Below, one piece after another: positions 20,302 through 20,521 of a DNA stretch of 64,000 nt. This stretch comes from Geoalkalibacter ferrihydriticus DSM 17813. GTDB taxonomy: Bacteria > Desulfobacterota > Desulfuromonadia > Desulfuromonadales > Geoalkalibacteraceae. The stretch covers positions 62,001 through 126,000 of the forward strand of contig NZ_JWJD01000003.1 in the NCBI RefSeq assembly GCF_000820505.1. Reading direction: 5' to 3'. The notes under the pieces are model-generated. The model had not been told where the DNA came from, did not search any database, and saw only the letters and a list, made by a program, of their open reading frames with translations. Both the position numbers and the translations under genes were made by a program. Within the stretch, counting starts at the first letter, position 1. Each line of letters starts with the position of its first letter.

Positions 20302-20318
20302 TTGGCACGGCCTGTGCT
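20302..20318 (+). promoter_or_regulatory. Sigma-54 promoter of glnB-amtB
   Basis: TTGGCACGGCCTGTGCT: -24 GG at 20304-20305, -12 GC at 20316-20317, spacing of ten, nearly the full consensus. Expected start near 20329, giving a leader of about 190 bases before glnB. Confidence 0.85.
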
Positions 20319-20389
20319 TAATATCTGCACAGTGCCGGTTTGTCTCAGCGCTTTCTAAAACGAACCAGCGAAGATTCAGCGGATTTCCA

Positions 20390-20439
20390 GCGACAACGGC
20401 GTTGCGGGAAGGTTCCGAAAAGCAAGGGCAAAGGCGCCC
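20390..20439 (+). promoter_or_regulatory. Two-hairpin ANTAR-type antiterminator motif in the glnB leader
   Basis: Hairpin P1 is GCGAC-AACGGC-GTTGC (20390-20405) and P2 is GGGC-AAAGGC-GCCC (20426-20439). Both present a six-base loop with A at position 1 and G at position 4, the recognition pattern of ANTAR-domain regulators, and both loops end GGC. P2 uses bases of the left arm of the following terminator, so P2 and the terminator cannot form together. Confidence 0.65.
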
Positions 20440-20480
20440 CAACTGCTTCCCCCATGGATGCAGTTCGGGCGCCTTTATTT
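20430..20480 (+). terminator. Intrinsic terminator in the glnB leader (attenuator)
   Basis: The left arm AAAGGCGCCC (20430-20439) pairs with GGGCGCCTTT (20466-20475); an AACTGC/GCAGTT extension lies inside the loop, and a T-rich tail (TTTATTTGTT) overlaps the right arm and follows it. It sits between the sigma-54 promoter and the glnB ribosome-binding site, so it must be bypassed for expression. Confidence 0.75.
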
Positions 20481-20521
20481 GTTGGCAACGAGCGAATGTC
20501 TCGACAAGGAGAAGATTCAGG

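Follow-up and report, generated by a model that had tools for sequence, protein, structure and literature searches.

A putative ANTAR-controlled attenuator behind a sigma-54 promoter in the glnB-amtB leader of Geoalkalibacter ferrihydriticus and its relatives

Introduction

What governs the expression of the PII protein and of ammonium uptake in the Desulfuromonadales? In the stretch of the Geoalkalibacter ferrihydriticus genome analysed here – 64,000 nucleotides, called the window below – the genes concerned follow one another on the plus strand: glnB, at 20522–20860, encodes a PII protein of 112 aa (PF00543, E 9e-33), and amtB, at 20921–22243, an ammonium transporter of 440 aa (PF00909, E 2e-101). 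We consider it highly probable that their shared leader is a conditional attenuator on which a sigma-54/NtrC-type and a kinase/ANTAR control act in series, and most likely this is the form that GnfK/GnfR takes in the Desulfuromonadales.

In 2010, Ueki and Lovley reportedly described a regulatory cascade in Geobacter sulfurreducens that comprises an activator and antitermination by GnfK/GnfR; like the system discussed here, GnfK/GnfR combines a kinase with an ANTAR response regulator and has nitrogen genes with sigma-54 promoters and leader terminators. In 2012, ANTAR elements were predicted to precede P-II, ammonium-transporter and nitrogenase genes; the predictions include a nitrogenase regulon under ANTAR control in Pelobacter carbinolicus and, for Desulfotomaculum acetoxidans, six units with at least 13 ANTAR elements between them (PMC3369931) – so that several such elements per unit are already known. 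Given these predictions and GnfK/GnfR, the novelty of our findings is limited, and the surprise is likewise modest, mechanism and target class alike having been known or predicted before. What is added is order-wide conservation with covariation, the assignment of a kinase, an enhancer site and a local regulon.

Architecture of the leader

Every element listed in a preliminary description of this locus was found on inspection of the sequence. The sigma-54 (-24/-12) promoter, TGGCACGGCCTGTGCTT, matches 11 of 12 consensus letters on the plus strand and is kept upstream of glnB in nearly all relatives; it occupies 20303–20319, one base above the 20302–20318 originally given. Downstream on the same strand follow two hairpins, both at the positions and with the loops first proposed: P1 (GCGAC-AACGGC-GTTGC, 20390–20405), which can be extended to 20380–20417, and P2 (GGGC-AAAGGC-GCCC, 20426–20439). 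The hexaloops AACGGC and AAAGGC both have A at position 1 and G at position 4 (A1/G4), and the 20-nt linker between the hairpins lies within the 2–25 nt limits of ANTAR-target RNAs (PMC8164766). An intrinsic terminator with a U-rich tail (20430–20483, plus strand) comes next, its stem AAAGGCGCCC...GGGCGCCTTT spanning 20430–20475 and being followed by ATTTGTTG; the glnB ribosome-binding site, AAGGAG (20506–20511, plus strand), lies just 5′ of the ATG at 20522.

The left arm of the terminator, originally said to overlap P2, consists of the P2 loop and the 3′ arm of P2. Because bases 20430–20439 are common to both, P2 and the terminator cannot coexist; the computed free energy of each alone is about -7.1 kcal/mol for P2 and about -32.7 kcal/mol for the terminator. 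Folded as a whole, the leader is 2.8 standard deviations more stable than shuffled sequences. In a mechanical scan of both strands of the 64-kb window, pairs of A1/G4 hexaloops with an overlapping terminator turned up in four places, among which only the glnB leader has a terminator that starts at the P2 loop.

The arrangement resembles the dual-hexaloop RNAs of the EutV/eutP system of Enterococcus faecalis, in which two A1/G4 hexaloop hairpins are likewise present and P2 overlaps an intrinsic terminator. It differs from these and from the ANTAR RNAs of PMC3369931 in its 20-nt linker and extendable P1, and in being preceded by a sigma-54 promoter and, further upstream, an activator site.

Conservation and covariation

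The regions 5′ of glnB were compared across the window's genome and its relatives, 51 in all, a set in which L032 and L033 duplicate L021 and L114, and L004 and L005 are almost identical. Order members with a closely related AmtB nearly all keep the sigma-54 box, P1, P2, the terminator and the ribosome-binding site. In an alignment of 32 relatives' leaders, from which the window's own leader was left out, the loops are conserved across the order and 94.1% of the P1/P2 cells are paired; cells changed on both sides number 37 against 10.9 in shuffles, all sliding controls scoring lower, and compensatory changes occur in both stems. Neither A1 nor G4 varies in either loop anywhere in the alignment, nor does A2 of the P2 loop. 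P1 is degenerate in three genomes (G032, G041 and G042), despite the presence of the kinase and the ANTAR protein.

A covariance model built from the same relatives-only alignment scores the glnB leader at 49.9 bits (E 9e-13 in the window, 5.5e-11 in the genome). This is the top match in the 3.84-Mb genome, the runner-up lying 27 bits lower at 22.6 bits; the calibrated model may serve to find further targets. Weak matches elsewhere in the genome that are within coding sequence and lack a terminator (e.g. L164–L172) were dismissed as chance, and a minus-strand match at 16229–16263 was rejected as internal to the ORF at 14761–16338. P2 alone does not define a target, because the P2-like 12-mer pattern has just about twice as many sites (75) as a reversed control.

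The overlap between P2 and the terminator is kept in 43 of 44 related leaders, and the terminator arm tracks changes in the P2 loop: AACGGC is accompanied by GCCGTT (L013, L115) and AAAGAC by GTCTTT (L018). The sole leader without the overlap comes from G007, a genome that has neither the ANTAR protein nor the kinase. In this leader (L131) a P2-like hairpin survives, but the overlapping terminator and a good P1 are gone, which looks like decay following loss of the regulator. In L127 and L129 (G040 and G029), the gap between the terminator and glnB exceeds 200 nt, as if something had been inserted.

Transcription initiation

The genome encodes RpoN (E 3e-64). Upstream of the promoter, at 20233–20249 on the plus strand, lies an enhancer-like palindrome of NtrC type, TGC-N11-GCA (TGCTTAATTGGTAGGCA), a pattern that 27 of the 51 upstream regions contain where 1.36 would be expected, its commonest position being about 69 nt upstream of the -24 element; the NtrC-type consensus used for comparison is quoted in PMC5424462. 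This conserved site supports the first of the two controls, a predicted NtrC-family activator. A point against it is that, for the G. sulfurreducens PII gene GSU0939, primer extension gave no RpoN start under the conditions used (PMC2725144).

A genome-wide search with the sigma-54 pattern proved too permissive, returning 1415 sites with up to two mismatches.

The ANTAR response regulator

Exactly one ANTAR protein (E 8e-21) is encoded in the genome. It is a receiver-ANTAR response regulator of 187 aa with Response_reg and ANTAR domains (G000:C5:122813; L001:1105–1668), and its gene lies outside the window, as the preliminary description had said of the regulator; the likely kinase, by contrast, is inside it (18625–20199). 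The protein is homologous to EutV (6WSH, E 1e-35), whose structure with RNA has been solved (6WSH/6WW6) and whose RNA contacts are given in PMC8934654. Of 11 such contact positions it keeps eight – R142, K143, K147, K149, E160, Y164, M172 and R175 – and these include the tyrosine that stacks on G4 and the essential methionine. Three differ (R168Q, N173D and R177S). The EutV numbering involves an offset of 2 between the chain and the paper, deduced from the pattern of residues.

The neighbouring kinase

Directly 5′ of the leader, both here and in most relatives possessing it, stands a gene for a GAF-PAS-HisKA-HATPase sensor histidine kinase (Pfam domains; 18625–20199, plus strand). About 80 nt upstream of its ORF is a tentative sigma-54-like promoter, TGGCACGGGTTATGCG (18532–18547, plus strand, 10 of 12 consensus letters). 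A 6S RNA gene (90.7 bits) also lies just upstream of the kinase gene, at 18122–18303 on the opposite, minus strand.

On sequence grounds, the ANTAR response regulator very probably has this kinase as its cognate, GnfK-type partner, so that a specific candidate can be named in place of an unknown regulator. Because the ANTAR gene lies away from the kinase in this genus, we infer the pairing here, reading the kinase as GnfK-type from its neighbourhood in relatives, its co-occurrence with the leader, a match in the same class and the numbering of the G. sulfurreducens genes. In many of the relatives, the ANTAR gene is found beside the kinase genes and glnB-amtB, either 5′ of the kinase (e.g. G009, G012, G025, G029, G036, G040, G044 and G053) or 3′ of amtB (e.g. 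G006, G016, G020, G026, G032, G038, G041 and G042). Among 58 genomes, counted without regard to kinship, 41 have both kinase and leader, one the kinase only, one the leader only and 15 neither; the two discordant genomes are fragmented assemblies, and three of the 41 carry a degenerate P1.

Genomes of this class that belong to another order have the leader 5′ of glnB, either immediately or with a porin-like gene between, and amtB and then a short kinase 3′ of it. The best match here of such a post-amtB kinase is the window kinase, at 218 bits against 165 for the next. GSU0940 is, we assume, amtB in G. sulfurreducens. The order leader-glnB-amtB-kinase agrees with the locus numbers of PII (GSU0939; PMC2725144) and gnfK (GSU0941; PMC7962754) in that species, which, as here, place the two close together, two numbers apart. 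The kinase of the window differs in lying 5′ of glnB and in having GAF and PAS domains, the same-class kinases being short and located after amtB. The porin-like gene that precedes glnB in same-class genomes (L232, L235) is different from a TorF/Gcw_chp-type porin-like gene found 3′ of amtB in the window (22324–23057; score below the curated cut-off).

A competing assignment accepts the ANTAR switch and has the kinase feed the NtrC-type activator of the sigma-54 promoter, or another regulator. The catalytic core of the kinase is indeed best matched, far below their cut-offs, by the NCBIfam models of AtoS and ZraS, which pair with NtrC-family activators, and the ANTAR gene is elsewhere in this genus. 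We nevertheless judge this assignment unlikely: the ANTAR gene is a recurring neighbour in the relatives (NtrC-family neighbours were not searched for systematically), co-occurrence of kinase and leader is near complete, and the best-matching kinase of a same-class genome occupies the gnfK position.

A further conjecture concerns the signal that reaches the GnfK-type kinase. PII controls NtrB in enteric bacteria, and the genes of PII and the kinase stay together with the leader throughout the class despite reversals of gene order. The Geobacter-like same-class kinase has only 247–277 aa and may need another input, because it has no room for a large sensor domain. PII might thus directly control the adjacent kinase, with ANTAR antitermination gated by PII itself – an idea that we hold with little confidence. 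If true, it would amount to a feedback loop running from PII through the kinase to the RNA, of which we know no earlier description.

Proposed mechanism

The preferred scheme can be set out as follows. An NtrC-family activator bound at about 20233–20249 would fire the sigma-54 promoter, as the conserved site and the promoter suggest. The nascent RNA would by default fold the strong terminator – a computed structure – and transcription would be expected to halt before glnB. Phosphorylation of the ANTAR response regulator, for which the kinase of 18625–20199 is the likeliest source, would let it bind P1 and P2 at their A1/G4 hexaloops, and the P2 that it holds would occupy the left arm of the terminator, allowing the polymerase to read through; these last two steps are predicted by homology with EutV, NasR and GnfR. 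The proposal of the preliminary description that PII and ammonium uptake need two locks is thus supported, as far as sequence can do so, by the model match, the covariation, the terminator overlap, RpoN and the single ANTAR protein. That description missed the kinase partner, the upstream NtrC-type site and the leaders of nifH, nifB and nifV. Across an order of anaerobes, PII and ammonium uptake would depend on a sigma-54 activator plus an RNA antiterminator.

Two other accounts of the leader are very improbable. In one, the leader would be a riboswitch that needs no protein, or an attenuator sensing a metabolite, and would work through the same exchange between P2 and the terminator, whose exclusive geometry would suit any attenuator. 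Here, however, conservation is limited to two small hexaloop hairpins, which is the ANTAR signature, and presence of the leader follows the kinase/ANTAR set; in Rfam searches of the leader, at the gathering threshold and permissively, no riboswitch or other family reached its threshold, P11 and narK giving weak matches far below theirs. The other, a plain terminator of the upstream kinase gene with incidental hexaloops, has in its favour that a terminator is expected anyway between the kinase gene and glnB and that the kinase may have its own promoter, but the conserved sigma-54 promoter is 110 nt upstream of this one, which therefore blocks glnB too, and a plain terminator has no need for covarying P1 and P2 stems or for an invariant A1 and G4.

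Serial sigma-54/NtrC-type and kinase/ANTAR control has parallels in the NasS-NasT and NasR systems of nitrate-assimilation operons (PMC5424462, PMC3795266), where general nitrogen control by NtrBC is likewise combined with ANTAR antitermination at two levels of one pathway. There, the signal is nitrate or nitrite, sensed via NasS or a NIT domain, as opposed to a histidine kinase and an ammonium/PII operon here.

Further leaders in the genome and its relatives

The same architecture of sigma-54 box, hairpins and overlapping terminator recurs on contig C5 upstream of nifH-nifD-nifK, nifB and nifV, and on contig C2 upstream of a gene for an 881-aa CheW-domain protein. NifH, NifD, NifB and NifV were named by sequence resemblance, Pfam having been run on NifD and NifV only. 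In the nifH leader, A1 of P1 is not kept, the loop being GAAGAC. The nifB leader (L182:6560–6700; G000:C5:144560–144700) has two successive modules of hexaloop P2 and terminator behind one sigma-54 box. The nifH, nifB and nifV leaders are probably served by the same ANTAR regulator as glnB.

The second nifB module has no clear P1 of its own, and a similar double module stands 5′ of nifB in G017 (L185). In nifH leaders (L182:690–800; L196 near 2620–2700), a second hairpin-terminator block follows the first terminator, with hexaloops of A1/G4 type (AAAGAG; ACTGGC).

The AmtB of the window is up to 74% identical to an alphaproteobacterial AmtB (Thalassospira, L035), about 48% to the AmtB of several families of its own order and 31–39% to that of Geobacter-like genomes, which suggests transfer or lineage replacement. 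The ANTAR leader was absent from the alphaproteobacterial amtB loci examined; the switch therefore did not travel with amtB.

An ANTAR-type leader of a different kind occurs in G057 (L187:877–924), where an overlapping terminator is combined with a sigma-70-like promoter and the leader adjoins a kinase; the start of the gene that follows resembles glutamate dehydrogenase.
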